Positions 38,766-59,295 of a stretch of DNA of 64,000 bases are shown here, one piece after another (within the stretch, counting starts at the first letter, position 1; each line of letters opens with the position of its first letter). The notes beneath the pieces were generated by a model, which worked only from the letters and a program-made list of their open reading frames with translations, was not told where the DNA came from and made no database searches. The position numbers and the translations under genes were made by a program. Source of the DNA: Pedobacter sp. Bi126 (lineage in GTDB: Bacteria; Bacteroidota; Bacteroidia; Sphingobacteriales; Sphingobacteriaceae); assembly GCF_918698245.1 (NCBI RefSeq), contig NZ_CAKKMS010000001.1, positions 434,001-498,000 on the forward strand, in the 5' to 3' direction.

Positions 38766-39446
38766 TTAACCTACTGCCACATCTTCTTTTACTACACCAT
38801 CGGCAATGTGCAAAATCCTATTTCCGTATTGTGCATTTTTTTCGGAATGTGTAACCTGGATAATGGTAATTCCATCTTCCTGATTTAGTTTTTTAAACAA
38901 TGTCATAATTTCTTCTGCCTGTGCCGACTGCAAATTACCTGTTGGCTCATCGGCTAGAATTATAGATGGTTGAGCGGCCAATGCCCTTGCGATACCAACC
39001 AATTGTTGCTGCCCGCCAGAAAGTTGATTCGGGAATAAATCTTTTTTTGCCACAATATTAAAACGGTCTAATAAATCGGCAATTCTACTTGCGCGTTCTG
39101 AGCTACCTACTTTTTTGTACAGCAATGGGGCTTCAATATTTTCGTAAACGGTCATTTCATCAATTAAGTGGTAGGCCTGAAAAACAAAACCGATATGATT
39201 TCGGTAAAGTTCAATGCGTTTACGTTCATTCAACGAAGTTACATCCTCGCCCAGAAACTCATACGAACCATAAGTTGGTTCTTCAAGCATGCCAATAATA
39301 TTGAGCAAAGTAGACTTCCCTGCACCCGATGGGCCCATAATAGAAACAAATTCTCCTTGTTTAATTGTTGTGGTAACCAAACGCAACACGTAATTTTTAA
39401 TGCCCTTGTTTGCGTAATATTTTTCGATGTTATTAAGTTGTATCAT
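38766..39446 (-). CDS. ABC transporter ATPase B of the MacB-like cluster (altered D-loop)
   Basis: The product has 226 residues from the ATG at 39446 (MIQLNNIEKYY; 21 more codons are open upstream). It has Walker [29 protein letters not shown], Walker B IILADEPTGN and VTHSEK, as in MacB/LolD-type ATPases. Two sites differ from the norm: the signature is LSGGQQQLVGIARAL (Leu for Arg) and the D-loop reads GNLQSAQ (Gln for Asp). The paralogue ATPase A at 57084 has the normal sequence at both. It is the last gene of the permease run and, with permeases 6 and 7, likely forms the second transcription unit of the cluster. Confidence 0.88.
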   Translation of the reverse strand: MIQLNNIEKYYANKGIKNYVLRLVTTTIKQGEFVSIMGPSGAGKSTLLNIIGMLEEPTYGSYEFLGEDVTSLNERKRIELYRNHIGFVFQAYHLIDEMTVYENIEAPLLYKKVGSSERASRIADLLDRFNIVAKKDLFPNQLSGGQQQLVGIARALAAQPSIILADEPTGNLQSAQAEEIMTLFKKLNQEDGITIIQVTHSEKNAQYGNRILHIADGVVKEDVAVG

Positions 39447-39477
39447 ATTTTTAGGGTTTAACGTAAAGCGGCTGGCT

Positions 39478-39518
39478 GTGTAGCGTAAATTTTTATCGCT
39501 AAACGCCAAACGCTACAC
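39478..39518 (-). repeat. Spacer hairpin (permease 7 / ATPase B)
   Basis: Arms GTGTAGCGT (39478-39486) and ACGCTACAC (39510-39518) with a 23-nt loop containing further AACGCCAAACG words. Similar hairpins fill the other spacers of the cluster. Confidence 0.5.
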
Positions 39519-39525
39519 GCAGTTC

Positions 39526-41949
39526 TTATTCGTATTTAAGTGCGTGTACAGGGTCGCCATTGGCTGCTTTTCTGGCCTGAATACTAACCGTTAATGCTGA
39601 TACTACTAATGAAACTATTGTAGCAATCAAAAATGGGTAAACAGGCATATCAATTCTATAGGCAAAACCATCGAGCCATTTTTTAACGAGGATATAAGCA
39701 ATAGGCCAGCTAATTAGGTTTGCAATTAACACCAATAGCAAAAACGATCTGTTTAGCAAGTTTATAATTTGCAGGTTAGATGCGCCGAGTACTTTCCTTA
39801 CAGCTACTTCCTTAGTTCTACGTTTGGCTACAAAAGTAGAAAGTGCGAAAAGGCCTAACAACGAAAGGGACACCGACAAGATACTGAATAGCACGATCAT
39901 ATTTATAAACCGATTGTTTTCTTTTAAAACATCAGCAAAAACGTCATCCATGGCTTTGTATTCCATCGGATAATCGGGGTAGGCCTGCTTCCATTCTGAC
40001 TGAACTTTTTTCATAATTTCGCCAGTGTTGGAGGTATTTAAACGTAACAATAAATTATTGGTAGAAGATGTTCCTCCTAAATGTGTAACCTTGTAGATGG
40101 TAGGTAAAACGGCTTTATCAAACCCTTCATTATGGTAATTTTTGATTACACCAACAATCTGAAAAACATAACTTTTATCTCCGTCCTTGATGCTATAAGA
40201 CTTTCCGACCGGTTTTTTATCTATCAGATTAGCTGCAGCCTCATTTAAAATAACGGTGTTGATGGTATCTTGTTTATAGGTTTTAGCAAATAACCTACCC
40301 TGAAGAACCCTTACACCCAAGCTTGGCAAGGCATCCATACTAACGGTAACGGTATTCATATTAAGTTGTTTGCCTTTGTATATGATTTCTTCTGGCACAT
40401 TAAATGCATTTCCCATTACCTGAGTGGTTGTTGCAACATACTGTACACCTGGAATTTTTCTAAGTTTTTCTGCAAAGCTTTCATCATAATTAGTCTTAAT
40501 GTTTACCAGCTCCCCTCTTTCAAAACCCAAATCTTTATTGCTCATAAACTGGGTTTGCCTATGCATAATGCCAATGGCTATAATGAAGGTAATTGAAATC
40601 ACAAATTGAAAAACAACCAGTCCATTCCTTAGCACAACACCTTTTAATCCGCTTTCATAACTTCCTTTTAGCACTGCAACCGGATTATAGTTCGACAATA
40701 CCCATGAAGGATAAAAACCAGCAAGCAAAGTCACCACGCTAAAAAGGCCAATTAGTTGAATCAACATCGTTTTAAGCTGTGGATTGAGCCAAAAACTCAA
40801 CTGAACATTAAAATGATGGTTAAAAGTCGGAAGCACAACTTCGATCAACACTACGCATAAGAATAAAGAAATCATACTCTGCAAGGCCGATTCGACTAAA
40901 AATTGAGCAATAAGTTCACGCTTATAAACTCCTAAAACCTTTTTAACTCCTACTTCTTTAGCTCTTTGAACCGATTGGGCTGTAGCAAGATTTACAAAAT
41001 TTATGATCGAAACAACAAGCAAAAAGATGGAAATACCAATTACTGGCCTTAACTTTTCTACCCAACTTAGTTTAAAAGGTGGATTTAAATGAACATCCTT
41101 TAAAGGGATAACCTTTAAACCCGGTGTTTTACCATTTTTATAGATCTCATTATACTGTAACTTGCGCTGCACCAATGATTTCTTTTGGTAATCGGTATAG
41201 ATTTTCAACAAACTTTGATTTAACGCGCCTGTATCCGCTACCTGGTTTAATTTTGTGTAAATCTGGCAATAATGAAAGTTACCGGCAGATTCGGGAACTT
41301 TATCTTCCTCACCGGTACGCATTAAAGCATTAAAGCCAACACTTTGGGGCGTTACAGGATCAGCAACTACTCCTGTAATCGTTAAATCTGTACCTGGGTC
41401 GTTCCGCCACATCAATACCTTTAACGTTTTCCCCAATACCTTTTCTGTTCCAAATAACTTTCTGGCTAAACTTTCTTTTAATACCACCGATTTTGGAGCA
41501 TTTAAAGCCGATTCGCTATCGCCCTGTAAAAACTCATACGGAAATACCTGAAAGAAACTACTGTCTGCATCTTTCATCCCCGTAACCATAACCGGATCGG
41601 CATGAGCAATTTTAACTGAATAACCACTGCTAAAACCCCAATCTGCCGTTACGCGGGTAACAGCAAGGGCTTGTGGAATATTTTCCCTTACCAGGTTTGC
41701 CATCCGGCTATCGTTTATCTCCTGCCAATGATCTTCATTATCAGGCGAAAAAAAACTGTGTTTCTCTCTCACCTGATACACATCTTTTAATTGTGGTGAC
41801 CAGGTATCGTAGCTTTCTTCGTGGTTGACATATAAAAGCATCAGTATGAAAGCTGTTAAGCCGATAGCCAAACCGCCAATATTAATGGCTGCATAAACTT
41901 TGTTTTTAAACAGGCTTCGCAGTGCGATTTTTAAGTTGAGTTTAAACAT
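39526..41949 (-). CDS. MacB/FtsX-type ABC permease 7
   Basis: The 807-residue permease is the longest of seven paralogues. It begins MFKLNLKIALRSLFKNKVY, has one membrane segment (about 20-43), a large periplasmic domain, four membrane segments with the coupling motif QRAKEVGVKKVLGVYKREL, a second periplasmic domain and three C-terminal membrane segments with RRTKEVAVRKVLGASNLQI and the end DPVHALKYE. The final peptide differs from the N-x-V-DALKYE of the others (His for Asp). ATPase B lies directly downstream. Of the seven, it and permeases 5 and 6 are the most divergent. Substrate unknown. Confidence 0.9.
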   Translation of the reverse strand: MFKLNLKIALRSLFKNKVYAAINIGGLAIGLTAFILMLLYVNHEESYDTWSPQLKDVYQVREKHSFFSPDNEDHWQEINDSRMANLVRENIPQALAVTRVTADWGFSSGYSVKIAHADPVMVTGMKDADSSFFQVFPYEFLQGDSESALNAPKSVVLKESLARKLFGTEKVLGKTLKVLMWRNDPGTDLTITGVVADPVTPQSVGFNALMRTGEEDKVPESAGNFHYCQIYTKLNQVADTGALNQSLLKIYTDYQKKSLVQRKLQYNEIYKNGKTPGLKVIPLKDVHLNPPFKLSWVEKLRPVIGISIFLLVVSIINFVNLATAQSVQRAKEVGVKKVLGVYKRELIAQFLVESALQSMISLFLCVVLIEVVLPTFNHHFNVQLSFWLNPQLKTMLIQLIGLFSVVTLLAGFYPSWVLSNYNPVAVLKGSYESGLKGVVLRNGLVVFQFVISITFIIAIGIMHRQTQFMSNKDLGFERGELVNIKTNYDESFAEKLRKIPGVQYVATTTQVMGNAFNVPEEIIYKGKQLNMNTVTVSMDALPSLGVRVLQGRLFAKTYKQDTINTVILNEAAANLIDKKPVGKSYSIKDGDKSYVFQIVGVIKNYHNEGFDKAVLPTIYKVTHLGGTSSTNNLLLRLNTSNTGEIMKKVQSEWKQAYPDYPMEYKAMDDVFADVLKENNRFINMIVLFSILSVSLSLLGLFALSTFVAKRRTKEVAVRKVLGASNLQIINLLNRSFLLLVLIANLISWPIAYILVKKWLDGFAYRIDMPVYPFLIATIVSLVVSALTVSIQARKAANGDPVHALKYE

Positions 41950-42021: not shown

Positions 42022-42026
42022 AGGTA

Positions 42027-44426
42027 TTATTCATATTTAAGTGCATCAATGGTATTGGCAACTGCTGCTTTATACGAGCGGATGCTTACGGTAATCAATG
42101 TAATGACCATAGAAATAATCATGGCAAATACAAAAGGCCAGATATTCAAATCAATGCGGTAGGTAAAAGTGGCCAGCCATTTGGCAACAAATAAATAAGC
42201 AAGTGGCCAGGCTACCAAATTGGCAAGAAAAACCATCAATAGAAATGAACCATTTAACATTTTAACCAATTCTAATGTAGAAGCACCCAAAACCTTTCTG
42301 ATGGCAACTTCGCGGGTTCTTTGTGTAGCCACGAAAGAGATCAGTCCAAATAAGCCAATAAAGGAAATAAAAATGATCACCCCGGCAAACACCTTAAAGA
42401 GGGCTCCCATTATTTTTTCGGTTTGATAATATTCACTGATTTTATCATCCATAAAAGTAGATCCATAAACATATTCGGGCAGTACTGTGTTCCATGTTTT
42501 TTCTATAGCCCGCATAGCAGGTAAAATACTTTTACTATCAAGCTTTACAGCTATAGTGGTGTACGATTCTTTATCACTGTTAATCACAATCGGAGAAATA
42601 GGCTCATGCAAACTCATGTTGTTAAAATCTTTAACTACACCGATGATATTGCCTGTTTTATCATTGATCCTGATGGATTTCCCAATCGCATCGTTATAAT
42701 TAACTACATTGAGCTTTTTTAACATGGTTTCGTTTACTACAATATCTTTGAGTGTATCACTCTTAGATAAACCTTTACCAGCAATAATTTCTAAACCAAA
42801 TGTTTTAAAGTAGTTTTCGTCTCCTGTTTTGGTGTTGGCCTGAAAAGTTGATTTTACTGTTCCATTGTACCTGAAATTACTCTCGTTATTGAAATCAGAA
42901 GATGGTGCTGCACTGCAATAGCTGGTTGATAATACACCTGGAATTTTGTTGATCTGATCCTGCAAAGTATGGTATCGGGTAATTGCCATGCTATCAGAAG
43001 GAACATCAACCAGAGCTACCGCCGTAGGAATAAAACCAAGGGGTTTCTCTCGCATGTAACTCATTTGCCTTAGTACAACCAAAGTACCTATAATCAAAAT
43101 AACAGTAATTGCAAATTGGACCACAACAAGAATCTTCCTCAAACTTAAACCTGCAGCATTCGCAGTAATTTTATTTTTAATGGCTAATGCGGGGCTATAG
43201 CCAGACATGACCATTGCCGGATAGAAACCGGCTAAAAAGCTTACCAGCAACACCAAAACAACCATAAACACAAATATGATGGGGTGCTCGATAATACTAA
43301 ATGAAATATGATCTTTAAACAAACTTTGCATGCCCGGCAAGGCTACTTCTGTTAAAACGCAACCTACCAGTAGCGAAATAACCGTTATTGTTAAAGTTTC
43401 TGTTAAAAACTGTACAATTAATTGCCTGCGCAAACTACCCATTACTTTACGTACACCAACTTCTTTCCCCCTGCTTACGGCCTGTGCAGTAGCAAGGTTG
43501 ATAAAGTTGATACATGCAGTCAACAATAAAAAAGCACCAATTATCGCCAATCCATAAAGTTCTTTCTTCGGCATTACTTTGTTCGCAAAATTGCCCAGAT
43601 CTGCATTATAGTGGATATCTCTTAGCTGTTGAAACCTATGGCTTTCTTTCGAAACATTATCTCTTTTATAGTATTTAGTAATAAACTGAGGGAGGCTTTT
43701 ACTTGCATCATCAATAGAAGCACCCTCTTTTAGTAATACATAACATTCAGAAGTAGAAGAAACTGTACCCCAATTAGTCGACTCTGGCCTTCCCTGATTT
43801 TGATAAGTTTTATAAGAGATGATTACTTTAAGTGGGAAAGAGCTGTTATCGGGTGTTTTTTCTATAATACCGGTAACTTTAAGGTCTACTTTGTTCTGAA
43901 AATTAATGCTTTTCCCAACTGCTTTATGCCAATTTCCGAAAAGTTTATCGGCCATCTCATCTGATAACACAACAGTATTAGGCTGACTTAGTGATTGGCG
44001 CGGATTTCCTTCAAGCCATTTAAAGCTTAAGATCTCAAAGAAATCTGGCTCTGCATAATGTACGCTTTCGGAGGTTTTAATTCTTTCTTTTCCGGATTCG
44101 TCTTTTACTTTAATAATTCCACCTCCGGCCTGAATAGCAGCAACTTTATCAAATTGCTGCTTAAAGTCATTTCGCATCGCTGGCGGAAGAGGTCGAGGTG
44201 TACCTGCAGATTCGAAAAAATTATCGGGTGTTGTCCAACCGGTTATTACACGGTATATACGGTCTTCATTTTTAAAGTTTTCATCGAAACTTAGCTGATA
44301 ACGGATAAAAATAAAAATTAGGATGCAGCTTGCCATTCCGATGGAAAGGCCCAAAATATTGATAAAAGTATAACCTTTATTTTTCCAAAGGTTTCGCCAA
44401 GCGATCTTCAAATTTAATTTAAACAT
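42027..44426 (-). CDS. MacB/FtsX-type ABC permease 6
   Basis: The 799-residue permease shares the layout of its paralogues: N-terminal MFKLNLKIAWRNLWKNKGY, a membrane segment at about 20-43, a MacB-like periplasmic domain, the coupling segment VSRGKEVGVRKVMGSLRRQ, a second periplasmic domain, RTREVAIRKVLGASTLELVK, and the end NTIDALKYE. The first periplasmic domain starts FDENFKNEDRIYRVITGW, a motif (D-x-F-x-x-x-x-x-I-Y-R-V) usual for this family in Bacteroidota. It is the first gene after the only long spacer of the cluster, and paired regulator sites sit 116-152 nt upstream of its start, so it likely begins a second transcription unit. Confidence 0.9.
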   Translation of the reverse strand: MFKLNLKIAWRNLWKNKGYTFINILGLSIGMASCILIFIFIRYQLSFDENFKNEDRIYRVITGWTTPDNFFESAGTPRPLPPAMRNDFKQQFDKVAAIQAGGGIIKVKDESGKERIKTSESVHYAEPDFFEILSFKWLEGNPRQSLSQPNTVVLSDEMADKLFGNWHKAVGKSINFQNKVDLKVTGIIEKTPDNSSFPLKVIISYKTYQNQGRPESTNWGTVSSTSECYVLLKEGASIDDASKSLPQFITKYYKRDNVSKESHRFQQLRDIHYNADLGNFANKVMPKKELYGLAIIGAFLLLTACINFINLATAQAVSRGKEVGVRKVMGSLRRQLIVQFLTETLTITVISLLVGCVLTEVALPGMQSLFKDHISFSIIEHPIIFVFMVVLVLLVSFLAGFYPAMVMSGYSPALAIKNKITANAAGLSLRKILVVVQFAITVILIIGTLVVLRQMSYMREKPLGFIPTAVALVDVPSDSMAITRYHTLQDQINKIPGVLSTSYCSAAPSSDFNNESNFRYNGTVKSTFQANTKTGDENYFKTFGLEIIAGKGLSKSDTLKDIVVNETMLKKLNVVNYNDAIGKSIRINDKTGNIIGVVKDFNNMSLHEPISPIVINSDKESYTTIAVKLDSKSILPAMRAIEKTWNTVLPEYVYGSTFMDDKISEYYQTEKIMGALFKVFAGVIIFISFIGLFGLISFVATQRTREVAIRKVLGASTLELVKMLNGSFLLMVFLANLVAWPLAYLFVAKWLATFTYRIDLNIWPFVFAMIISMVITLITVSIRSYKAAVANTIDALKYE

Positions 44427-44451: not shown

Positions 44452-44469
44452 TGCAAGTGTTTATGCCAA
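44452..44469 (-). promoter_or_regulatory. Possible sigma-54 promoter before permease 6
   Basis: On the minus strand TTGGCA (44469-44464 region) and TTGCA (44456-44452) match the two blocks of a sigma-54 promoter, TTGGCAc-N5-TTGCA, but with one extra base between them (11 nt between GG and GC, not 10). It would give a leader of about 15 nt. Its position relative to the 44542-44578 sites mirrors the 59181/59259 pair. Confidence 0.4.
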
Positions 44470-44541
44470 TTTTATACCAAGAGCAAAACAAAACATAAAT
44501 AACTAAATATCAACCATATACAAATAAACAAAAAGAAAAAA

Positions 44542-44578
44542 TGTCCGTTTATGAACAGTACCTGTACGGTTCCGAACG
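44542..44578. promoter_or_regulatory. Paired inverted-repeat sites upstream of permease 6
   Basis: Site A TGTCCG-TTTA-TGAACA (44542-44557) and site B TGTACG-GTTC-CGAACG (44563-44578) each match TGTnCG-N4-CGnACA with one mismatch. Their starts are exactly 21 nt apart, as in the pair at 59259-59295. They lie about 100-130 nt upstream of the expected transcription start, the normal place for an NtrC-type activator. Confidence 0.65.
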
Positions 44579-44596
44579 GAGAATAGCTAAGCGTTT

Positions 44597-44635
44597 GGGC
44601 TTAGGCGATAAATTCGCACTGATCGCCTAACGCCC
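44597..44635 (-). terminator. Hairpin after permease 5, possible end of unit 1
   Basis: TTAGGCGAT (44601-44609) and ATCGCCTAA (44622-44630) are perfect arms, extended by GGGC/GCCC with one bulged base. It follows the permease 5 stop by 12 nt on the minus strand. There is no T-run. Confidence 0.45.
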
Positions 44636-44646
44636 TCACGCAGGTC

Positions 44647-47022
44647 TTATTCATATTTAAGTGCATCAACGGGGTTTGCTTTTACAGCACTGTTTGCCTG
44701 GATACTTACGGTTATAATGGTTAACAAAATGGTTAGCGCTGCACTGATTAAAAAAGGGAAAAGTGGCAGATCGATTCGATATGCAAAGGTTTCGAGCCAC
44801 TTTTTGGTTAATATGTACGCCAATGGCCAGGAAATAATATTGGCTATAAGCACCATAACAAAGAATGAACTATTAATGAGTTTGAAAATCTGTAAATGAC
44901 TTGCACCAAGAATTTTCCTTATTGCAATTTCCTTCATTCTACCAGTGGTAATGTATTTTGCAAAGGCAAATAAACCCAGTATTGCAATAAAAATGGTGAG
45001 GATTGCAGCAGCAAAAAATACAGATTGTAATTGTTCTTGTTTTTTAAAGAGTTTACCATACATTTCATCCAGAAATTGGTAACGGAAATTATCTCCATCC
45101 AACTTGTTAATCTCTGGCCATTGCGATTTTAAGGTACTCAGCACTTCAGACATCCTGCTTTCTTCTATTTTTAGCATAATTTCTGTTTTAGGGTTTCCGC
45201 AGGGATCATTTATTGCGTAAATGGTAGGCTGTACTGCTTTCTCAAATCCAAGTGCTTTAAAATCTTTTATCACGCCTACAATCTTATATTCTTTATTCTG
45301 GCAGCCTTTTATGGTTTTACCTACAGGGTTGGTTAATCCATACTTCGCTACTGCAGCTTCATTAAGTATAGCAGAATTTGCCGTATCGGTTTTAAATTCT
45401 CTGGAAAATGTTCTGCCTTCTTTAATCTTAATATCTAATGTTTCAAAATAATCAAAATCTACATCTGTAAAACTTAAACTTTGTTCTTTTCCATCAACCG
45501 TATATTTATTTTTTCCACCATCAGAACCGTCCGGCAATGCATTGGTAACAGTAACCGATTTCACCCCCGGAATCTTAACCATTTTATCCCTTATAGGATC
45601 GAATTTGCTTGGCGAGACGAAATAGGCGAGGTTTTTAATGTACACCACTTGTTCGGGTTTGAAACCAATATCCTGAGTACGCATGTATTTTAGTTGAGAA
45701 CTGATGATGAGCAGACCTATAATAAAAACTACCGCTACGCTAAACTGCACCACCAATAAGCTGTTGCGCAACCAATAGCTCTGTTTGCTGGTTTGAAAAT
45801 TACCTTTTAAAACAAGTGCAGGTTTAAATCCAGATAGTACCATGGCAGGATAAATACCAGCTATCAGCGTAATAAAAATTAATATAAGTGGCAATTGCCA
45901 GAATAAAGCACTATTGGCTACCCAAATGGATAAATTGACCACGAACAGGTTATTAAATTTTGGCAAGATGATTTCGGCCATAATCAGTCCTAATATCGTC
46001 GCTGCTAAACACTGAATTAATATTTCTGTTAAAAACTGAAAAGCAAGCTGAAAGCGATAAGCACCCATCACTTTTTTAACGCCTACCTCTTTTGCCCGTT
46101 TGGTTGCCTGCGCTATACTCAGATTGGTAAAGTTGATACAGGCGATTACCAAGATCAGGATCCCTAAAACAGACAAAGCTACGAGTACTTTATAATTGGC
46201 ATCGGTACCGGCCTTTGGTTTAAGGTGTTGGTTTTTTAAAGGATCAAGAAAGGCTTTTGTTGCTTTAAAAGTCTCATTATTGGGATCTTCTCCATCTTTA
46301 AGCAATTCCTTTTTATAAAGGGCATTAATTTTAGCTTCAAGTGCCTGAATATCTGTGCCCGGTTTTACCTGGATATAAGTCTTGTAGTTGTTGTATCCAT
46401 AGTTTTCGCCTATCCCAACTTCTTTCATCAATGAAATGGCATCGAAAGTAATATTAGAGTGGGGATCGGCAAAAATACTTCCGCTCAACTTACCTGTCAT
46501 ATTAGCCGATTTACTCCCAAGCCAAATCATTTCAGGCTGACCGTTTTTATTATGGGGGAAAAGCGTTTTATAATTTTCGTTACTGAGGTAAAACAGATTT
46601 TCGGTTGTACTTTCCGGCTGAGTTAAACCGACATTGGGTTTAATGTTAAACATTTTTGCCGCAGCATAATCAAGATAGAGGCATTTACTTAAAAAAACAA
46701 CACCGTGATCGCTGCTAACCGGAAATTCAAAAAAACTCATTTTCATGGTACCAACTGAAACTACTTCTGGAATTTCTGCTTTAATAGCTTTACCCAATGG
46801 TGGCGGAGTATTATTGGTCTTAAAATCAGGCAACTGTCTTCCTACTACGTAAATTTCGTTGTAGTTTGGATTTTCTTTGTCAAAACCTGTTTCGTAGGTA
46901 AAATACATGGTTACCAAAATAAATGCAGCTAAAGCAATAGCTAAGCCACCAATATTGATGAAGGTAATTATCTTGTTTCTCCAGAGATTGCGTAGTGCAA
47001 TTTTTAAGTTTAATTTAAACAT
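44647..47022 (-). CDS. MacB/FtsX-type ABC permease 5
   Basis: The 791-residue permease starts MFKLNLKIALRNLWRNKIIT and ends NPVDALKYE. It has the same eight-membrane-segment layout with coupling segments TKRAKEVGVKKVMGAYRFQ and GRMKEIAIRKILGASHLQIF. Its first periplasmic domain is distinct (ETGFDKENPNYNEIYVVGRQ and FEFPVSSDHGVVFLSKC), lacking the block shared by permeases 1-4, so it likely has a different ligand contact. A Cys pair (KGCQNKEYK and INDPCGNPKT) lies in its second periplasmic domain. It is the last gene of the first unit as judged from the long spacer that follows. Confidence 0.9.
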   Translation of the reverse strand: MFKLNLKIALRNLWRNKIITFINIGGLAIALAAFILVTMYFTYETGFDKENPNYNEIYVVGRQLPDFKTNNTPPPLGKAIKAEIPEVVSVGTMKMSFFEFPVSSDHGVVFLSKCLYLDYAAAKMFNIKPNVGLTQPESTTENLFYLSNENYKTLFPHNKNGQPEMIWLGSKSANMTGKLSGSIFADPHSNITFDAISLMKEVGIGENYGYNNYKTYIQVKPGTDIQALEAKINALYKKELLKDGEDPNNETFKATKAFLDPLKNQHLKPKAGTDANYKVLVALSVLGILILVIACINFTNLSIAQATKRAKEVGVKKVMGAYRFQLAFQFLTEILIQCLAATILGLIMAEIILPKFNNLFVVNLSIWVANSALFWQLPLILIFITLIAGIYPAMVLSGFKPALVLKGNFQTSKQSYWLRNSLLVVQFSVAVVFIIGLLIISSQLKYMRTQDIGFKPEQVVYIKNLAYFVSPSKFDPIRDKMVKIPGVKSVTVTNALPDGSDGGKNKYTVDGKEQSLSFTDVDFDYFETLDIKIKEGRTFSREFKTDTANSAILNEAAVAKYGLTNPVGKTIKGCQNKEYKIVGVIKDFKALGFEKAVQPTIYAINDPCGNPKTEIMLKIEESRMSEVLSTLKSQWPEINKLDGDNFRYQFLDEMYGKLFKKQEQLQSVFFAAAILTIFIAILGLFAFAKYITTGRMKEIAIRKILGASHLQIFKLINSSFFVMVLIANIISWPLAYILTKKWLETFAYRIDLPLFPFLISAALTILLTIITVSIQANSAVKANPVDALKYE

Positions 47023-47082: not shown

Positions 47083-49464
47083 TTATTCATATTTAAGTGC
47101 ATCAACAGCGTTTGCTTTGGCCACTTTAAAGGTTTGCAGGCTTACCGTTAAAATGGCAATAATTACCGAGGTTAAAAGGGCAAGCAAAAAAGGCCATGGA
47201 TTAATGGTAATCTTATAATCATATTTCTCCAGCCATTTGGCAACAAGAATATAAGCTACCGGGATAGCAATCACATTGGATATGATTACCAGTTTCATAA
47301 AATCTTTGTTCAAAAGGACCAGGATATCAGAAAGATTAGCGCCCAATACTTTACGGATACTGATTTCTTTGCTGCGCTGTTCAGCGGTATATAGCGCTAA
47401 ACCCAATAAACCTAAACAAGAAATAAAAATGGCAAATCCTCCAAAAATATTGGAAAGTACACTGAGCAACCTTTCGCTCTTAAGTTTTTCGGCCATGCCC
47501 TGACTAACCAGTTTCACTTCAATTGGATAAGCCGGATTTAAACGTTGACTTACCGATTTTATCGCTTCGATTGAATTAGTAAGCGATTGCTTAGGATTGA
47601 GTTTAAGCAGTAAAACCCGACTCGTTTTAACATTGTAATAATAAACTGTTGGCTGTATTTTAGAAGCAAGTGATTCGTTAGAATAATCTTGCACCACGCC
47701 TACCACTTTAAGTGGCGGATTATCGCCCCAATGGATAACAGTACCCACAGGGTTTTTTAACCCCATTATTTTAACGGCAGTTTGATTGAGGAGCAGAGAT
47801 GTAGCTGTATCAGCCGAAAATTTAGGATCAAAATCTCTGCCCGCAAGAATTTTCACACCAGTTGTTTTGGCAAAATCGAAACCTGTACTTCTATAATTAA
47901 TAATCGAGACATCATTTTTGGGCTTGCCTGGCCATTGAATATCACTGGTAATTGAACCACCATCTGTAAACGAGCCAGCATATTCTGTTGCAGCAATTGT
48001 AGCACCTGCCCGCTGCAATTCATTTTTAAAAGTCTGCAATTTCTGTGGCTTTGTCCACTCTCCTTCTAAATCGATCTGTACCAGCGCAGTCTGATCAAAG
48101 CCTAAGGGCTTATTTTTAAGGTGCTGAATTTGGCTGTAAATTACAATTGCCGAAATAATCATGCAGATAGAAAGGCTAAACTGTACTACTACCAGTATTT
48201 TGCGGATTGATAATGAGCCCGTTGAACCTTTAAAGCCTTTTAATACCTTTACGGGTATAAATGATGAAAGGTAAAATGCAGGATAACTGCCGGCAAGCAA
48301 ACCGGTTACCAGTACCATAACAAGTAATAAGCCCCAAAATTGATAAGCATTGTAATTAATTTTGATCGCAATATCGAGCAGGTTGTTAAAGTAAGGCAAT
48401 GAGACTTCAAGCAACGTAAAGGCAATTAACATTGCTAAAAAAGACAGCAGTATTGACTCTACCATAAACTGTCCCATTATTGTATTTCTGGTAGAACCTA
48501 AAGCCTTTCTAACCCCTACCTCACGGGCACGTTTCTCCGACTTAGCAGTTGAAAGATTCATGTAATTGATACAGGCGATAAATAATACACAGATGGCCAG
48601 AAAAACAAATAATCGCAACTGATCAATTTTACCCCCCACCGATTTTCCATTGTCAAAATCACCATATAAGTGAAATTTGCTTAAAGGAAAAAGAAAAGGT
48701 TCGTAGGTCATTTCTTTTAAATCGGGTTCTTTGTTTACGATGAAGTGTTTTAGTGCTGCATTTGTTGCATCTAAAGAAGCATTATCTTTAAGCTGAAAGA
48801 AGGTTAAACAGGTAATTGCTCCCCATCCATTTTCTTTTTCGGAAGGATTTTCCTGTTCAAAAAAAGCCCATGGTTGCAGAACATCAAACTGCATGCTTTG
48901 ATTTTTTGGCAAATCTTGTATTACAGCACTAACTTTTAAGTCTACCCTGTTATCGTATTTAATACTTTGTCCTATTGGATTCTGGTCGCCAAATAATTTC
49001 TTTGCTGTCGATTCGCTTATCAATACGTTATTAGGCTCAGATAAAGCAGTACCTGGATCGCCATAGATAAATTTCTGTTCAAGGATTTTTAAAAAATCAG
49101 GATCTACATTAAATCCTATTAATTTAAAATTATTCCGGTTATGGCTGTATAATTTCTGGCCATTGTTCATTGAAATGCGGGCTGCACTTTTAATGCCTGG
49201 CAATTCTGAAACTCCAGCTTTGGCCAATTTATTCGGAACGGCCATCGTAGTAGCCAGCTTGCCGTTAAACTTTAAATTTAATGCGGCAAAATATACTTTA
49301 TCGGCGTTTTTATATTGCTTATCGAAACTCCATTCGTAGTTAACGTACAAGAGTAACATTAAACAACAGGCCATTCCGATGGCTAGGCCGCCTACATTGA
49401 TCAATGTAAAGCCTTTGTTTTTCCAAAGGTTACGTAGTGCTATTTTAAAGTTTAATCTTAACAT
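47083..49464 (-). CDS. MacB/FtsX-type ABC permease 4
   Basis: The 793-residue permease starts MLRLNFKIALRNLWKNKGFT (Leu-Arg in place of Phe-Lys) and ends NAVDALKYE. Membrane segments and coupling motifs (SEKRAREVGVRKALGSTRNT and EQRSKEISIRKVLGANLSDI) match permeases 1-3. Its first periplasmic domain contains WSFDKQYKNADKVYFAALNL and KKLFGDQNPIGQSIKYDNRV, the usual MacB-like block. Four of the seven (1-4) form a closer subgroup, and this one is the most distant of the four. The spacer to permease 3 is longer than usual and may hold a relic of another copy. Confidence 0.9.
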   Translation of the reverse strand: MLRLNFKIALRNLWKNKGFTLINVGGLAIGMACCLMLLLYVNYEWSFDKQYKNADKVYFAALNLKFNGKLATTMAVPNKLAKAGVSELPGIKSAARISMNNGQKLYSHNRNNFKLIGFNVDPDFLKILEQKFIYGDPGTALSEPNNVLISESTAKKLFGDQNPIGQSIKYDNRVDLKVSAVIQDLPKNQSMQFDVLQPWAFFEQENPSEKENGWGAITCLTFFQLKDNASLDATNAALKHFIVNKEPDLKEMTYEPFLFPLSKFHLYGDFDNGKSVGGKIDQLRLFVFLAICVLFIACINYMNLSTAKSEKRAREVGVRKALGSTRNTIMGQFMVESILLSFLAMLIAFTLLEVSLPYFNNLLDIAIKINYNAYQFWGLLLVMVLVTGLLAGSYPAFYLSSFIPVKVLKGFKGSTGSLSIRKILVVVQFSLSICMIISAIVIYSQIQHLKNKPLGFDQTALVQIDLEGEWTKPQKLQTFKNELQRAGATIAATEYAGSFTDGGSITSDIQWPGKPKNDVSIINYRSTGFDFAKTTGVKILAGRDFDPKFSADTATSLLLNQTAVKIMGLKNPVGTVIHWGDNPPLKVVGVVQDYSNESLASKIQPTVYYYNVKTSRVLLLKLNPKQSLTNSIEAIKSVSQRLNPAYPIEVKLVSQGMAEKLKSERLLSVLSNIFGGFAIFISCLGLLGLALYTAEQRSKEISIRKVLGANLSDILVLLNKDFMKLVIISNVIAIPVAYILVAKWLEKYDYKITINPWPFLLALLTSVIIAILTVSLQTFKVAKANAVDALKYE

Positions 49465-49611: not shown

Positions 49612-51984
49612 TTACTCGTATTTAAGTGCATCAACAGGATTGGCGTTTGCAGTTTTATAAGCCTGAAAACTTACAGTGATTAATGCCATTAGCAAAGTCC
49701 CAAATCCTGCTATCGGCATAATCCACCATGATATTTCGGTATGGAATTCGAACTTCATCAGCCATTTATTCATCATGAAATAGCTCAAAGGAATAGCGAT
49801 AACGATAGCAACAACTATCATCTTCACAAAAGAGAGCGACAGTAATTGCATCAAATTAAATAATGAGGCACCTAATACTTTGCGTACACCAAATTCTTTT
49901 GTTCTCTGCTCTGCACTATAGGCCACCAGACCAAAAAGTCCCAAACAGGAAACGAATATGGCCAGTCCGCCAAAAAGATTTGAAAGGATGCCTAAAGTTT
50001 TCTCCCTTTGGAACAAATCACTGTATACCTCATCTAAAAATGAGATTTCAACCGGATAAGCAGGATTAATATCTTTGGTAATTCGGGTAATTGTTTCAAT
50101 ATTTTGCTGAATGGTATTCGAAGTATTTAGCCTCATCGTGATATAACTTGTATACTTATCATTAAAATAAAGTATCATTGGGTTATTCGATTTATAAGGC
50201 GAATCCCATACATAATCATCAAAAACCCCAATAATCACCCTTTTATCACCAAAAATGGTTAGAATTTGCCCTACTGGTTTTTTTAAATTCATTACTTTTG
50301 CGGTTGCAGAACTAATAAGAACGGCTGCAGAATCAGATGCAAATTTTTTAGAAAAATCCCTTCCTTCCAATAATTTTATCCCGTTAGTTTTTATGAAATC
50401 ATAGCTGGCTTCAACCTTGTTAAACAGGTTATCATTATTCTCCTGAACCATTCCAGGCCAGCGAACATCGGTAAAATTTGAACCGTGGTGTGATAATTTT
50501 GTTGAAGATTTATTTAAACTTGTTACAGCACCAGATTGCAGTAATTTTTGCTTGTAAACCTCAAACTGATTTTTTAGCTGTCCATCTTGAGGAATCTCAA
50601 TTAATGCTTTGGTATCTATGCCCAGTGGTCTATTTTTAATGTATTGAATTTGACGATAAATAACCAGCGTTGAAATAATCAGAACGATAGCAAAACAAAA
50701 CTGGCTTACAACAAGGACTTGCCTTAAGCTTACAGATGCCAAACCTTTCGATTTTATTTTCCTTTTTAAAGTTTGGATCGGGTTAAAAGCAGATAAATAA
50801 AATGCGGGATAACTTCCTGCGATTAAACCTGTAGCGATAACTATTCCCAATATGCCAATCCAACTGGTTAAATTAAAATAAGATATGCTGAGATTGATAT
50901 TTAAAAGACCATTAAATGCAGGCAAACAGATTTCGATCAGCGCAATTGCGACCACAACCGCAATTAACGTAAGCACCATTGATTCTGTTAAAAATTGAAG
51001 AATTAATGAAATTCGATTTGCGCCAATTGTCTTCTTAATACCGACTTCTTTCGCCCGTTTTTCTGATTTGGCCGTAGCCATGTTCATAAAATTGATACAA
51101 GCAATAAGTAAAATACCAAAAGCAAGACCAGTAAAAAGCCATATTTGTTCAATGTCGCCGCCTACACTTTTACCATTTTCAAACTTACCAAATAAGTGCA
51201 GTTTAGCATATTGGAATGCTACGAAAGGTTGGTCGGTTTGTTTATTATTTGCTTTAACAGTCTCATCAATTTTCCTGTTCACAACATCAATGTCTGCATT
51301 AGGATTAAGAGAAAACATTGTTACAAAACTGTAATTACCCCATCCCAAATTCTTCGCGCTTTCATCAACCCTCTCGTAAAAGGCCCAAGGCATTAAAAAG
51401 TCGAACTTAAGCGAGCTATTTTGAGGTATATCTTTTATTACACCGGTTACCGTCAAATTTTCACTATCCTGATAACGGACAGATTTGTTTAATACATTTG
51501 TTGTACCGAAAAGAATTTCCGCCATTGTCTCAGTAAGAATTACAGATTTCGGGTTTTTCATTGCGGTTTTGGCATTACCCACAATAAATTCATAATTAAA
51601 CAGCTTTAAAATATCGGGTTCAGCGAATTTTCCGTCTTTCTTAAATCCATTTTCTCCATTTGCAATTAAACTTTTTTTGATGTAGTTCATCCTTGCAAGG
51701 TTTTTTATTTCGGGAATGCGTTCCCTTAATAATGGTCCGAGCGCCGTTGTTGTTCCTTCAAATGTCTTCGATACACCGCCATTTCCATCAGGAATATTAG
51801 TCATAACCGTATACAGATTTTCTGAGTTTCTATAGTGCTTATCAAAGTTCCATTCGTAGGTAACATACAAGAGCAACATTAAGCAGGCAGCCAAACCAAT
51901 GGCCAGCCCAATTACGTTAATAAGCGAGCTTACCTTGTTTCGCCAAAGGTTACGCAGTGCAATTTTTAAGTTTAATCTAAACAT
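49612..51984 (-). CDS. MacB/FtsX-type ABC permease 3
   Basis: The product has 790 residues from the ATG at 51984 (MFRLNLKIALRNLWRNKVSS; seven further codons are open upstream but lie in the spacer). It ends NPVDALKYE. Layout: membrane segment at about 20-43, periplasmic domain, SEKRAKEVGIKKTIGANRIS, four membrane segments, periplasmic domain 2, EQRTKEFGVRKVLGASLFNL, three membrane segments. Its first periplasmic domain (WNFDKHYRNSENLYTVMTNI, EPDILKLFNYEFIVGNAKTA) keeps the MacB-like pattern. Its IGANRIS coupling motif and C-terminal EISWWIMPIAGFGTLLMAL differ from the neighbours. Confidence 0.9.
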   Translation of the reverse strand: MFRLNLKIALRNLWRNKVSSLINVIGLAIGLAACLMLLLYVTYEWNFDKHYRNSENLYTVMTNIPDGNGGVSKTFEGTTTALGPLLRERIPEIKNLARMNYIKKSLIANGENGFKKDGKFAEPDILKLFNYEFIVGNAKTAMKNPKSVILTETMAEILFGTTNVLNKSVRYQDSENLTVTGVIKDIPQNSSLKFDFLMPWAFYERVDESAKNLGWGNYSFVTMFSLNPNADIDVVNRKIDETVKANNKQTDQPFVAFQYAKLHLFGKFENGKSVGGDIEQIWLFTGLAFGILLIACINFMNMATAKSEKRAKEVGIKKTIGANRISLILQFLTESMVLTLIAVVVAIALIEICLPAFNGLLNINLSISYFNLTSWIGILGIVIATGLIAGSYPAFYLSAFNPIQTLKRKIKSKGLASVSLRQVLVVSQFCFAIVLIISTLVIYRQIQYIKNRPLGIDTKALIEIPQDGQLKNQFEVYKQKLLQSGAVTSLNKSSTKLSHHGSNFTDVRWPGMVQENNDNLFNKVEASYDFIKTNGIKLLEGRDFSKKFASDSAAVLISSATAKVMNLKKPVGQILTIFGDKRVIIGVFDDYVWDSPYKSNNPMILYFNDKYTSYITMRLNTSNTIQQNIETITRITKDINPAYPVEISFLDEVYSDLFQREKTLGILSNLFGGLAIFVSCLGLFGLVAYSAEQRTKEFGVRKVLGASLFNLMQLLSLSFVKMIVVAIVIAIPLSYFMMNKWLMKFEFHTEISWWIMPIAGFGTLLMALITVSFQAYKTANANPVDALKYE

Positions 51985-52061: not shown

Positions 52062-54422
52062 TTATTCATATTTTAATGCATCAACAGGATTTGCTTTGGC
52101 CACTTTAACCGATTGAATACTTACGGTGAGTATGGCAATAATTACTGAAAGACTAATTGCGGCTATAAACGGCAAGGCAGAAACAGAAATGCGATATTCG
52201 TATCCCGAGAGCCATTTATTGATAATAATATAGGCCAACGGAAATGCGATTACATTGGCTATTGCAACCAGTTTGATAAAATCTTTGTTCAATAAAGTAA
52301 GGATGTTGGCTGTACTGGCGCCCAAAACCTTGCGGATACTGATTTCTTTTTTGCGTTGCTCTGCCATAAATAAAGCTAAACCAAGTAAACCCAGGCAGGA
52401 GATAAAGATGGCAAAACCACCGAACCAGTTTGAAAGTGTGCCCAAAAGTTTCTCATTTTTAAACTTTGATTGGAAATTTTCATTCACAAATTTTACTTCG
52501 GTTGGAAAAGCAGGATTTAGTTTTTTTATAATTTCATTTATTTTATTAATAGACGAGGTAACATTGCTTTGATCATTTAATCTCATAATTATAGTGCTTG
52601 TTGCCTGCTTATTTTGTGCAATAATTAATGGTTTCGGACTTTGATAAGGCGACTCCATTACATAATCCTTCACTACCCCAACAATAGTTAGGGGCTGGCC
52701 CCAGCTAATCACTTTACCAACAGGGCTTTTCATGCCCATCACTTTAACTAAAGCCTCATTAACTAAAACATTTGCAGTATCTATCCGGTCTTTCGAAAAA
52801 TCGCGCCCAGCAAGAATTTGCATCCCGGTGGTTTTAGTCAAATCAACCGTCGTAAATCTGTAGTTTACCAGTATTTTTTCAATCTCATCTTTACCCGGCC
52901 AGCTTACTGCATACGTATTATTACCGCCAGCAGTTAACGATTGACTGTATTCTGTAACCGCAGTTGCTGCACCAGATTTTAGAAGTTCATCTTTTAGAAT
53001 ATTACGCTTACCTGGGTTGGCAAATTCGCCCTCGGCAGGGATCTGAACAAGATTATCGATGTTATAACCAATCGGTTTATTCTTGATAAAATTCAGTTGC
53101 TGATAAATAACAGCTGTACAAACAATCAAACATGCAGCAAATACAAATTGAAAAACAACTAAATACTTGCGAATAGATAACGATGAGCCACCAGAAAGCT
53201 TAAATCCTTTTAATACTTTAACCGGATCGAATGATGAAAGGTAAAAAGCCGGATAACTGCCAGCAATAATGCCGGTTAATAATGTTAACCCTAAAAATAC
53301 AGCCCAGAATTTCCAATCGGCATAATCTATTTGCAATGAGATTCCCAACAGGTTATTGAAATATGGCAAGCTTACCTCTATTAATACAAAAGCAACCAGC
53401 ATACTTAACATTGTAAGTAAAATCGATTCAAACATAAACTGGTTAATCAGATTATTCCTAGACGAACCAATCGCTTTACGGACACCAACTTCACGGGCTC
53501 TTTTTTCTGATTTTGCTGTAGAAAGATTCATGAAATTAACGCAGGCTATTAATAGAATACAGAAAGCTAAAAGAAAAAATATCTTTAACTGGTCTATCCT
53601 ACCGCCTACATTTTTGCCATTTTCGAATTTTTCATATAAATGCCATTTAGATAGTGGATGAAGAAAAGGTTCTCCATTCGAATTCTTGTCATTGGCCTTA
53701 ATCATGCCATGCATTTGATTATTAGCTTGCTCGAAAAAAGAATTATCTTGCAACTGAACAAATAACACGCAGTAATTAGAAGTCCACCCACTGGTTTTTG
53801 TCCAAGGGTTTAATGTTTCGTATAATTTCCACGACATTAGGTAATCTATTTCCAGACTACTGTTTTTCGGTCTGTCTTCAACTACACCCTCTACTTTTAA
53901 ACTTCGATTATTTTCGAGTTTTACAACCTTATTTAAAGGATCTTCATTACCGAAAAGGTTTTTCGCCAGAGTTTCGCTTAAAATTATGCCATCAGGGTTT
54001 TTTAGAAAAGTATTAGGATTACCCTTTAAAACCTTGTAATCAAACATTTTTAAAAAGTCAGGATCAGCAAACACGGCACTCGTCTTAAAGTTGTTCTGCT
54101 GATAAGAAAGCATTTTATATTCTGGATAAGATAATCGACCAACCTTCGAAACACCCGAAACTTTAGAACGTACTTCGTTTTCCATTAAACCCGGCACCGC
54201 AAGAAAGCTGAAAGTTTCTTTTGCTGTTTTCTGATTATTATAAACCAAATAAGTTTTATCATAATCGGTAAATTGTTTATCGTAACCGTACTCATAAGCA
54301 ACATAGAGCAATAAAACCATACAGCTTGCCAAGCCAATGGCCAATCCTCCCAAATTAATCAGTGTAAATCCTTTATTTCTCCAAAGGTTTCGCAAAGCGA
54401 TTTTTAAGTTTAATTTGAACAT
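52062..54422 (-). CDS. MacB/FtsX-type ABC permease 2
   Basis: The 786-residue permease starts MFKLNLKIALRNLWRNKGFT and ends NPVDALKYE. It is the closest relative of permease 1: their last 120 residues differ at only about ten positions (EQRKKEISIRKVLGASTANI then LNKDFIKLVAIANVIAFPLA). The first periplasmic domain reads YGYDKQFTDYDKTYLVYNNQ. Coupling motif 1 is SEKRAREVGVRKAIGSSRNN. The near-identical C-terminal halves and spacers point to a recent tandem duplication of one permease plus spacer. Confidence 0.9.
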   Translation of the reverse strand: MFKLNLKIALRNLWRNKGFTLINLGGLAIGLASCMVLLLYVAYEYGYDKQFTDYDKTYLVYNNQKTAKETFSFLAVPGLMENEVRSKVSGVSKVGRLSYPEYKMLSYQQNNFKTSAVFADPDFLKMFDYKVLKGNPNTFLKNPDGIILSETLAKNLFGNEDPLNKVVKLENNRSLKVEGVVEDRPKNSSLEIDYLMSWKLYETLNPWTKTSGWTSNYCVLFVQLQDNSFFEQANNQMHGMIKANDKNSNGEPFLHPLSKWHLYEKFENGKNVGGRIDQLKIFFLLAFCILLIACVNFMNLSTAKSEKRAREVGVRKAIGSSRNNLINQFMFESILLTMLSMLVAFVLIEVSLPYFNNLLGISLQIDYADWKFWAVFLGLTLLTGIIAGSYPAFYLSSFDPVKVLKGFKLSGGSSLSIRKYLVVFQFVFAACLIVCTAVIYQQLNFIKNKPIGYNIDNLVQIPAEGEFANPGKRNILKDELLKSGAATAVTEYSQSLTAGGNNTYAVSWPGKDEIEKILVNYRFTTVDLTKTTGMQILAGRDFSKDRIDTANVLVNEALVKVMGMKSPVGKVISWGQPLTIVGVVKDYVMESPYQSPKPLIIAQNKQATSTIIMRLNDQSNVTSSINKINEIIKKLNPAFPTEVKFVNENFQSKFKNEKLLGTLSNWFGGFAIFISCLGLLGLALFMAEQRKKEISIRKVLGASTANILTLLNKDFIKLVAIANVIAFPLAYIIINKWLSGYEYRISVSALPFIAAISLSVIIAILTVSIQSVKVAKANPVDALKYE

Positions 54423-54499: not shown

Positions 54500-56869
54500 T
54501 TATTCGTATTTAAGTGCATCAATAGGGTTTGCCTTCGCTACTTTAACCGATTGAATACTCACAGTGAGTATGGCAATGATTACCGAAAGACTAATTGCGG
54601 CTATAAACGGCAATGCAGATATAGAGACGCGATACTCGAAAGCCGAAAGCCATTTATTTACAATGATATATGCTAATGGGAATGCTATAAGATTGGCAAT
54701 GGCCACCAATTTTATAAAATCTTTATTTAGCAACACGAGGATATTGCTGGTGCTAGCTCCTAAAACCTTACGGATACTGATTTCCTTTTTACGTTGCTCT
54801 GCCATAAATAACGCTAAACCAAGTAAACCCAGGCAGGAGATAAAAACGGCAAAGCCACCGAACCAGTTTGAAAGTGAACCTAGAATTTGTTCATTTTTAA
54901 ATTTTACTTCAAAAGATTCGTTCACAAATTTGCGGTTAACAGGATAATTAGGTTCCATTTGCTTTACTAAATCATCAATTTTGGCCAATGATGAACTGAT
55001 ATTTTGATTTGGATTTAAACGCGCAATGATAACCCTCGCATCGTATTTTCCATTTGCCCTAAAAATCATTGGGGCAACTCTTTGATAGGCACTTTCTACT
55101 ACAAAATCTTTTACAATACCAACTATAGTTAACTTTTTATCCCAGAAAGTAATTACTTTGCCAATTGGATTTTTTAATTGCATCATTCTCACAGCCGCCT
55201 CATTTAACAATACGCTAGCTGTATCATTAGGGAATTTCGCAGAAAACTCCCTACCATTAATCATTTTAGTGCCAATAGTTTCAACAAAATCATACCCTAT
55301 TGTTCTATGATTAAAAGAAATAGCTTCGTTTGGGTTTTTACCTTCCCATTGTACACCCGTAGTATTATCTCCACCTTCAGTAAAATCTGTACTAAAGAAA
55401 GTAACATCGCTTGCAGCACCAGCTGCTATTAGTTGCGTTTTAAGCAATTCTAGCTTTGCTGCATCGTTCATTTTGCCAACAACTGCTATCTGAATTAAAT
55501 TGGATTGATCATAACCAATAGGCTTATTTTTAACATAATTAAGTTGCTGATAAATTACTGCTGTACAAATAATTAAACTTGCCGCAAAAACGAATTGGCC
55601 AACCACTAATACTTTTCTCACCGAAGTAGATGAATCTGCTTTAAGGGTGAAACCTTTTAACACTTTGATAGGTTCAAAAGAGGATAGATAAAGCGCTGGA
55701 TAACTACCCGCAATTAATCCGGTTAAAATCATTAGTCCCACTAGTGTTAACCAAAATAGGCTGTTATGATAATCTATTGTTAATTTAATATCTAACAGAC
55801 CATTAAAATATGGCAAACTCACCTCAATTAAGATAAAAGCTAAAACTGTGGCAATAAATGTGAGGAGTAGGGATTCTAAAAAAAATTGATTAATTAACGA
55901 TTTACGTGTTGATCCGATTGCTTTACGAACGCCAACTTCTTTTGCCCTACGTTCTGAGCGTGCTGTAGATAAATTCATAAAATTTACACAGGCAATTAAC
56001 AAGATACAAAAGGCCAGCAATAAGAATATTTTAAGCTGATCTATTTTTCCACCTACCGATTTACCGTTTACAAAATCATCGTATAGGTGCCATTTGTTTA
56101 AAGGATGTAATAAAGCTACTGCCGTATTATCTTTTTGATTGCGTTTGTAAATGCCATGCATCAAATCATTTGCAGCAGTAAAAAAGTTATTATCCTTTAA
56201 CTGAACAAGGGTTAAACACATATTATTCCCCCAATTGCCTTCCTTCACCCAGTTTTCTCGTTTTTCGAACAATGCCCAGGGCATGATGCACTCAAAAGTT
56301 AAACTACTATTTGCTGGTGCATCTTCTATTACAGCTTCAACCTTTAATGCTTCCTGATTTTCAAGCTTTACCATTTTATTAAGTGGATCTTCATTTCCAA
56401 ATAATTTTTTCGCAAAAGATTTGGTAAGAATAATGGTATTTACATCTTTTAAAACTTTGGCTGAATTACCTTCAAGAAATTTATAATCCAATATTTTAAT
56501 AAAATTTTGGTCGGCAAATATTGCACTGCTATTTATTTTATTGTCACCAACGGTAATTAATTGTTTCCTCGGATAAGTAGTGTGAGAAGCATATTTAACG
56601 CCAGGGATTTTTTCTTGCACTTCCTTAGCCATCACATTAGGTGTCCACGCCCAGCTAAAAGTTTTACCACTTGCCTCCATATTTTGATAAACTACATAAG
56701 TTTTATCGTGATTGGAGAATTGTTTATCGTAGCTCCACTCGTAAGCAACATAAAGTAACAAAACCATACAGCTGGCTAAGCCAATGGCTAAACCCCCAAT
56801 GTTGATCAAAGAGAATCCCTTGTTTTTCCAGAGGTTTCGCAAAGCGATTTTTAAGTTTAATTTGAACAT
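54500..56869 (-). CDS. MacB/FtsX-type ABC permease 1
   Basis: The 789-residue permease, first in the row after ATPase A, starts MFKLNLKIALRNLWKNKGFS and ends NPIDALKYE. A membrane segment (INIGGLAIGLASCMVLLLYV, about 22-41) precedes the first periplasmic domain (WSYDKQFSNHDKTYVVYQNM). Next come SERRAKEVGVRKAIGSTRKS with four membrane segments, a second periplasmic domain, and EQRKKEISIRKVLGASTSNI with three more. MacB-type permeases do not move substrate through the membrane by themselves; they drive an outer-membrane exit duct or pull on a partner across the periplasm. Substrates include peptides and antibiotics in known cases. Confidence 0.9.
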   Translation of the reverse strand: MFKLNLKIALRNLWKNKGFSLINIGGLAIGLASCMVLLLYVAYEWSYDKQFSNHDKTYVVYQNMEASGKTFSWAWTPNVMAKEVQEKIPGVKYASHTTYPRKQLITVGDNKINSSAIFADQNFIKILDYKFLEGNSAKVLKDVNTIILTKSFAKKLFGNEDPLNKMVKLENQEALKVEAVIEDAPANSSLTFECIMPWALFEKRENWVKEGNWGNNMCLTLVQLKDNNFFTAANDLMHGIYKRNQKDNTAVALLHPLNKWHLYDDFVNGKSVGGKIDQLKIFLLLAFCILLIACVNFMNLSTARSERRAKEVGVRKAIGSTRKSLINQFFLESLLLTFIATVLAFILIEVSLPYFNGLLDIKLTIDYHNSLFWLTLVGLMILTGLIAGSYPALYLSSFEPIKVLKGFTLKADSSTSVRKVLVVGQFVFAASLIICTAVIYQQLNYVKNKPIGYDQSNLIQIAVVGKMNDAAKLELLKTQLIAAGAASDVTFFSTDFTEGGDNTTGVQWEGKNPNEAISFNHRTIGYDFVETIGTKMINGREFSAKFPNDTASVLLNEAAVRMMQLKNPIGKVITFWDKKLTIVGIVKDFVVESAYQRVAPMIFRANGKYDARVIIARLNPNQNISSSLAKIDDLVKQMEPNYPVNRKFVNESFEVKFKNEQILGSLSNWFGGFAVFISCLGLLGLALFMAEQRKKEISIRKVLGASTSNILVLLNKDFIKLVAIANLIAFPLAYIIVNKWLSAFEYRVSISALPFIAAISLSVIIAILTVSIQSVKVAKANPIDALKYE

Positions 56870-57782: not shown

Positions 57783-57842
57783 AGTATCAAGTATTATTCT
57801 AGTATTTAGTATCTTGTACATGTAGTTAGTATCAAGTATCAA
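57783..57842 (-). repeat. TTGATACT-word repeat before ATPase A
   Basis: On the minus strand the spacer reads as repeated words (CTTGATACTTGATACTAAC, then ACAAGATACTAAATACTAG, AATACTTGATACTA). The same words lie before murA at 6530-6560. Confidence 0.5.
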
Positions 57843-59180: not shown

Positions 59181-59196
59181 ACCAAGCTTGTGCCAA
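59181..59196 (-). promoter_or_regulatory. Sigma-54-like promoter for the adaptor gene
   Basis: On the minus strand TTGGCACAAGCTTGGT (59196 to 59181) matches TTGGCACG-N4-TTGC with exact spacing from GG to the -13 G, but has T in place of C at -12. Transcription would start about 20 nt before the ATG at 59147. The paired sites at 59259-59295 lie about 90-125 nt upstream. Confidence 0.55.
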
Positions 59197-59258: not shown

Positions 59259-59295
59259 TGTTCGTTATCGGACAGTTCGTGTGCGGGAGCGGACA
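59259..59295. promoter_or_regulatory. Paired inverted-repeat sites in the divergent region
   Basis: Site 1 TGTTCG-TTAT-CGGACA (59259-59274) and site 2 TGTGCG-GGAG-CGGACA (59280-59295) fully match TGTnCG-N4-CGnACA and start 21 nt apart. They lie between the adaptor gene and the NtrC-type regulator gene and are the likely binding sites of that regulator. Site 2 ends 34 nt before the regulator ATG, so autoregulation is possible. Confidence 0.7.

Follow-up and report, generated by a model that had tools for sequence, protein, structure and literature searches.

A predicted sigma-54 enhancer-promoter module inside a row of FtsX/MacB-like permease genes in Pedobacter sp. Bi126

Rows of FtsX/MacB-like permease genes recur in the genomes examined here, and for such rows we found no published regulator or signal. 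One of them lies in a 64,000-nt stretch of Pedobacter sp. Bi126 DNA, called the window below, and it raises the question of what is achieved by a 220-bp spacer that carries two palindromic sites between the fifth and sixth permease genes. On the minus strand the cluster runs in the order HlyD-type periplasmic adaptor (57903..59147), ATPase A (ABC_tran, 57084..57842), permease 1 (789 aa, 54500..56869), permease 2 (786 aa, 52062..54422), permease 3 (49612..51981, listed from a GTG at 52005, the ATG at 51981 being the likelier start), permease 4 (793 aa, 47083..49464), permease 5 (791 aa, 44647..47022, the last gene before the spacer), the spacer itself, permease 6 (799 aa, 42027..44426, the first gene after the putative internal promoter), permease 7 (807 aa, 39526..41949) and ATPase B (ABC_tran, 38766..39509). 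The FtsX and MacB_PCD domains were found directly by domain search in permeases 1, 5 and 6 and were assigned to permeases 2, 3, 4 and 7 through their similarity to permease 6, while the adaptor and both ATPases were likewise recognized by domain search. With FtsX and MacB_PCD permeases, ABC ATPases and a periplasmic adaptor, the cluster has the composition of a MacB/FtsX-type ABC export system, and PspA is not among the cluster genes described. Searched with permease 6 as query (E 1e-15 or better), the genome yields seven permeases of this kind, every one of them in the row, and the nearest named relatives of this protein are those of Pedobacter sp. ISL-64 (98% identity) and P. ginsenosidimutans (97%).

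Divergent from the adaptor, on the plus strand, are the genes of a response regulator (59329..60699) and a histidine kinase (60767..62122; PAS_8 and HATPase_c), both identified by domain search. The response regulator, our proposed binder of the paired sites, combines a receiver (Response_reg), an AAA+ activator domain (Sigma54_activat) and a Fis-type HTH (HTH_8), as NtrC-type activators do, and among solved structures its best sequence relatives belong to the NtrC family of regulators, with 4l4u ranking first. Activators of the NtrC/ZraR/PspF type serve sigma-54 promoters that have paired upstream enhancer sites, and NtrC-type activators usually have a GAFTGA motif, in the loop that contacts sigma-54; the translation of 59329-60699 has GAFTDA. 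The genome encodes sigma-54 (a single Sigma54_DBD match, E 2e-55), and the sigma-54 activator domain gives 10 strong matches in it, 15 over the cut-off. A second copy of the regulator, 49-50% identical, occurs in genomes G058, G059, G091 and G095.

The sites in the spacer are TGTCCG-TTTA-TGAACA (site 1, 44542..44557) and TGTACG-GTTC-CGAACG (site 2, 44563..44578), neither of them assigned a strand, and a pattern search confirmed what the initial annotation had said of their positions, of the 21 bp between their starts and of the single base by which each misses the consensus TGTNCG-N4-CGNACA. Being in tandem at this interval, they lie on one helix face, upstream of the predicted promoter. The claim that the same architecture recurs was borne out at 59259..59295 (again without strand), between the response regulator and adaptor genes. 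The spacer had also been called the only long one in the row; it is indeed the longest gap separating two permease genes, but gaps of 147 bp (permeases 3-4, with permease 3 taken to start at its GTG) and 214 bp (ATPase A-permease 1) also exist, and a search allowing up to 3 mismatches found no pair in either. The latter gap (56870-57083) folds into inverted repeats, and one of roughly 200-300 bp between these two genes is recurrent in many relatives.

A genome-wide search for the paired motif (up to 3 mismatches) returned three copies in 6.29 Mb, against none for the reversed control: one upstream of the adaptor, one in the spacer and one at locus L002 (1501-1537), before the gene of a 202-aa DUF2807 (GIN-domain) protein. 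This third pair lies between the GIN gene and a divergent adenylate/guanylate-cyclase gene, with its promoter element facing the former. Single sites barely exceed chance, since the window holds 13 at up to 2 mismatches where 8.8 are expected, a count reached in 8 of 100 shuffles, and exact sites number four in the whole genome and four in the reversed control; the signal therefore resides in the pairing.

All three pairs are followed, 61-62 nt downstream, by a TTGG-N7-TTGG element, which we take as the predicted sigma-54 promoter: TTGGCACAAGCTTGGT before the adaptor (59181..59196, minus strand, 62 nt from its pair), TTGGTATAAAATTGGC in the spacer (44465..44480, minus strand, 61 nt) and TTGGCACCTGCTTGGT before the GIN gene. 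Of these three, the spacer promoter ends in GC and so reads GG-N10-GC, and the other two, before the adaptor and GIN genes, have GT in place of GC. An alignment of eight spacers preserves the element, as TGGTATAA[A/T]ATTGG, together with both sites in every one of the eight. The initial annotation had placed the promoter slightly nearer to the gene, at a sigma-54-like TTGGCA/TTGCA pair (44452..44469, minus strand). That string does occur there but lacks conservation in its -12 half: TTGCA is kept only in our genome, G057 and G011, reads TTTCA in G040 and is absent from G074, G049, G087 and G053, whereas the element at 44480-44465 is conserved in distant relatives. Owing to this conservation, to the distance of 61-62 nt common to the three pairs and to the standard GG-N10-GC spacing, the promoter was reassigned to 44480-44465, 11 bp upstream; the 11-nt GG-GC spacing, once regarded as the weak point, thereby disappears, for the box had been misplaced. 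Transcription would presumably start near 44453, if the usual 12-nt distance between promoter and start is assumed.

The comparison was then extended to 99 genomes of the genus, our own included. At least one pair (up to 2 mismatches) is present in 81 of them, the reversed control giving none in all 99, and the response regulator (E 1e-120 or better) is present in 83. Both occur together in 80 genomes, the regulator alone in 3, the pair alone in 1 and neither in 15, so that pairs are found in 80 of 83 regulator-positive genomes but in 1 of 16 regulator-negative ones (Fisher p 6e-14, with related genomes treated as independent). G019, G038 and G065 yield a pair at a looser threshold only, and G027 has a pair without a regulator match in a genome that is 80% complete. 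When the cluster side of the regulator was read in the 82 other genomes and in our window, a pair (up to 4 mismatches) preceded the adaptor, between the regulator and adaptor genes, in all 83 clusters. Altogether these clusters contain 98 pairs, compared with none for the reversed pattern and with 1, 0, 3 and 2 for control start spacings of 16, 18, 26 and 31.

The promoter keeps its place with similar regularity, as TGG-N10-G[CT] begins 61-64 nt downstream of 94 of the 98 pairs, whereas only 1346 of 166000 random positions (0.8%) have it there. The four exceptions are the adaptor promoters of G088 and G052, both reading TTGGCATAAGCTTGGA at the same place, and the internal pairs of G069 and G028, which match no promoter by pattern and are each followed by a TTGGCAT element; for the adaptor pairs by themselves, TGG-N10-[GA][CT] is found at 60-66 nt in 81 of 83. 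Chance palindromes in an AT-rich spacer would account for single sites that are barely commoner than expected, but not for pairs that number 3 in the genome against 0 in the control, and 98 across the cluster regions against no more than 3, nor for a promoter at one distance, and conservation already refutes coincidence; the probability that we leave to it is negligible. The earlier argument that the recurrence is a sign of function is supported by the genome, genus, alignment, regulator co-occurrence and promoter-distance comparisons alike.

Seen directly in the sequence are the pair and its near-constant distance to the promoter-like element, as well as the conservation of the pair and the fact that it occurs together with the regulator gene. 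Because the genome has ten strong matches to sigma-54 activators, and since palindromes alone do not identify what binds them, the pair is assigned to the neighbouring regulator by position and co-occurrence. It could instead be bound by another activator, or by a regulator unrelated to sigma-54, with the neighbouring response regulator acting elsewhere. Against this stand the location of the pair between the regulator and adaptor genes in 83 of 83 genus clusters, its lack in 15 of the 16 regulator-negative genomes and, in other genera, the regulators of about 50% identity that adjoin a pair where they were read (e.g., G116, G136 and G148), so that we regard a different binder as very unlikely and retain the neighbouring regulator.

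Internal pairs are less widespread. Fifteen were found in 14 of the 83 clusters, 13 of them with a promoter at 62-64 nt, and none was found at up to 4 mismatches in the remaining 69; as 8 of the 83 stretches end at a contig boundary, internal pairs are perhaps undercounted. The expectation that orthologous clusters would share the sites thus holds throughout for the adaptor pair, but for the internal pair in those 14 only. In nine clusters (our own, G057, G011, G040, G074, G049, G053, G087 and G036) the pair and a promoter of the aligned type stand before a permease-6 relative, and this module persists where permease identity has fallen to 61-63%. Twelve named Pedobacter loci that contain a permease-6 relative were also compared, several of them not independent of the genus sample; the internal pair is present in three (ISL-64, Leaf216 and P. 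ginsenosidimutans) and missing in nine, one of which, L134, starts within the gene. According to a quick tree of 85 permeases, the distribution of internal pairs requires 8 changes, of which well-supported branches force at least 6, so the internal unit was probably gained or lost repeatedly during reshuffling of the rows.

Such a history also suits the view that the spacer sites are a relic of a once independent permease unit, in a row now transcribed from the adaptor promoter only. The 69 clusters without a detected internal pair, the 8 gains or losses on the tree and the existence of permeases with a pair of their own outside the cluster all agree with it. Nevertheless, nine clusters retain both sites and the promoter, and four of the eight aligned spacers (G074, G049, G087 and G053) keep the motif although the surrounding DNA has changed, which points to selection; we therefore think a relic unlikely. 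Judged from sequence comparison, it is very probable that the spacer is an internal enhancer-promoter module for predicted regulator-activated sigma-54 transcription of permeases 6 and 7 and ATPase B. Since the same pair precedes the first gene of the cluster in all 83 regulator-positive genomes of the genus sample, the spacer is likely a second switch for the last transporter genes, operated through the neighbouring regulator.

Whether a second switch also implies two separate transcripts is another matter. The initial annotation had the cluster divided into two units, and behind the stop codon of permease 5 there is indeed a hairpin (44591..44641, minus strand, -29.5 kcal/mol, z -5.0). Its candidacy as the terminator of a first unit is unsupported, as it is of the same kind as the hairpins in four other gaps (permeases 1-2, 2-3, 4-5 and 6-7), and accordingly there is no sign that transcription stops after permease 5. 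The part of the earlier claim that does persist is a second sigma-54-type unit ending with its own ATPase, which the recurring pair appears to mark according to the comparative tests. The spacer resembles the usual hairpin-bearing gaps, with a regulatory module in addition, and transcription from the internal promoter may supplement read-through. Five gaps that follow permease genes (41950-42026, 44591-44641, 47023-47082, 51982-52061 and 54423-54499) share the start G/T-AC-C/T-TGCG and a strong hairpin, several of them being rich in GCGTTTGG/CCAAACGC; they may represent a repeat element or a structure that affects mRNA stability. A strict palindrome search returned two gaps of the cluster and one site elsewhere in the genome. 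Other gaps in relatives measure only about 15-16 bp.

Beyond the genus, a sample of 201 genomes of the family, 36 of them from the same genus, contains pairs in 85 genomes and in 13 of 25 genera, with up to 16 per genome and with a control of zero throughout. Outside the genus, where the regulator was scored at E 1e-125 or better on 8 candidates per genome, pairs occur in 51 of 92 regulator-positive genomes versus 4 of 73 regulator-negative ones (p 1e-12, related genomes again being treated as independent), and the other 41 regulator-positive genomes lack a pair at up to 2 mismatches. When 20 stretches around pairs from other genera were read, the pair preceded the gene of a permease, an adaptor, an ATPase or a regulator in 15, and in five (L149, L157, L158, L159 and L163) it did not. 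On the regulator side, 18 stretches, chosen from genomes already known to carry pairs, gave 12 with a pair before an adaptor 34-41% identical to that of the window; G122, G182, G187 and G192 had no pair before the adaptor, and the stretches of G153 and G134 were incomplete. A narrow promoter pattern at 55-75 nt matched just one of the other-genera pairs read. For several of these the sequence shows a candidate TGG-N10-GC/GT element about one helical turn nearer to the pair, at some 50-54 nt, and for others there is no clear candidate. Across all loci together, with each pair read both ways, 77 of 244 downstream stretches have TGG-N10-G[CT] at 61-64 nt and 20 have it at 50-54 nt.

As for further targets, 13 permease genes outside the regulator cluster have a pair in other genomes of the genus Pedobacter, seven with the promoter pattern and six without, and GIN genes with a pair occur in six genomes, our own included. 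Among 51 loci, L009, L010, L021, L106, L115 and L121 lacked both a promoter within the distance range and a recognized gene; L031/L122, a single place, does have the promoter, and no open frame was called downstream of it. As many as 16 pairs occur per genome in genus g15 of the family and as many as 12 in genus g4; where such loci were read (within L145-L152, L156-L159, L223-L225, L232 and L233), several pairs precede divergent permeases along one contig stretch. The contexts of the pair across the family thus comprise adaptors, in-row permeases and scattered single permeases. Tentatively, and at rather less than even confidence, one may regard the pair with its sigma-54 promoter as a portable "permease cassette" header, by which one two-component system would command an expandable and reshuffling set of MacB-like exporters and a Toastrack-type protein, as a distinct envelope-defence regulon of the Sphingobacteriaceae.

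As for how the module could work, phosphorylation by the neighbouring kinase would enable dimers of the response regulator to occupy the two palindromes, which are spaced by two helical turns; the AAA+ ring would then form and, through a DNA loop, reach and open the promoter some 61 nt distant. The promoters of the adaptor and of the remote GIN-domain gene would respond together with the spacer, which would serve as a booster keeping the promoter-distal genes induced. As to the inducing signal, the gene types allow a guess at envelope stress. The predicted design resembles NtrC/ZraR/PspF enhancers in its tandem palindromes some 80-100 bp upstream of the start of a GG-N10-GC promoter, and the regulator resembles their activators in its receiver, AAA+ and Fis-type HTH domains. 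The design differs in having its own motif, TGTYCG-N4-YGNACA, and a second copy inside an operon, and in the proposed targets, which are FtsX-type permeases instead of nitrogen, zinc or phage-shock genes.

For Bacteroidia, sigma-54 control of FtsX-like permeases (COG0577) has been predicted from promoter matrices, a result described there as the first evidence for such a link (PMC12316311, PLoS One 2025). The same permease class would be under sigma-54 here, whereas an enhancer motif, a named regulator and an internal promoter are absent from that prediction, as far as the accessible part of the paper goes (PMC12316311). Together with other Pfam models, DUF2807 has been united under the name Toastrack, whose proteins are partners of phage-shock systems (PMC11237479). 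The presence of a Toastrack protein is a feature shared with the phage-shock/Lia envelope-stress systems, as is an NtrC-type activator in the case of PspF; in the present genome the connection consists of an enhancer common to the cluster and a single remote gene, and not of an operon. In general, sigma-54 has been tied to the cell exterior (PMC3162934). That the arrangement constitutes an enhancer-dependent sigma-54 regulon, in which the internal booster is a less common trait, is well supported. Within a literature reach that took in few subscription journals, no published source was found for the motif, the regulator assignment or the internal unit, and as no paper with the motif or regulator was found, we consider the arrangement new.

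The enhancer motif and its near-fixed distance to the promoter name a likely regulator of the permease rows and list candidate targets in any sequenced relative. Some permease rows may be boosted from inside, and the purpose of these rows becomes directly testable.
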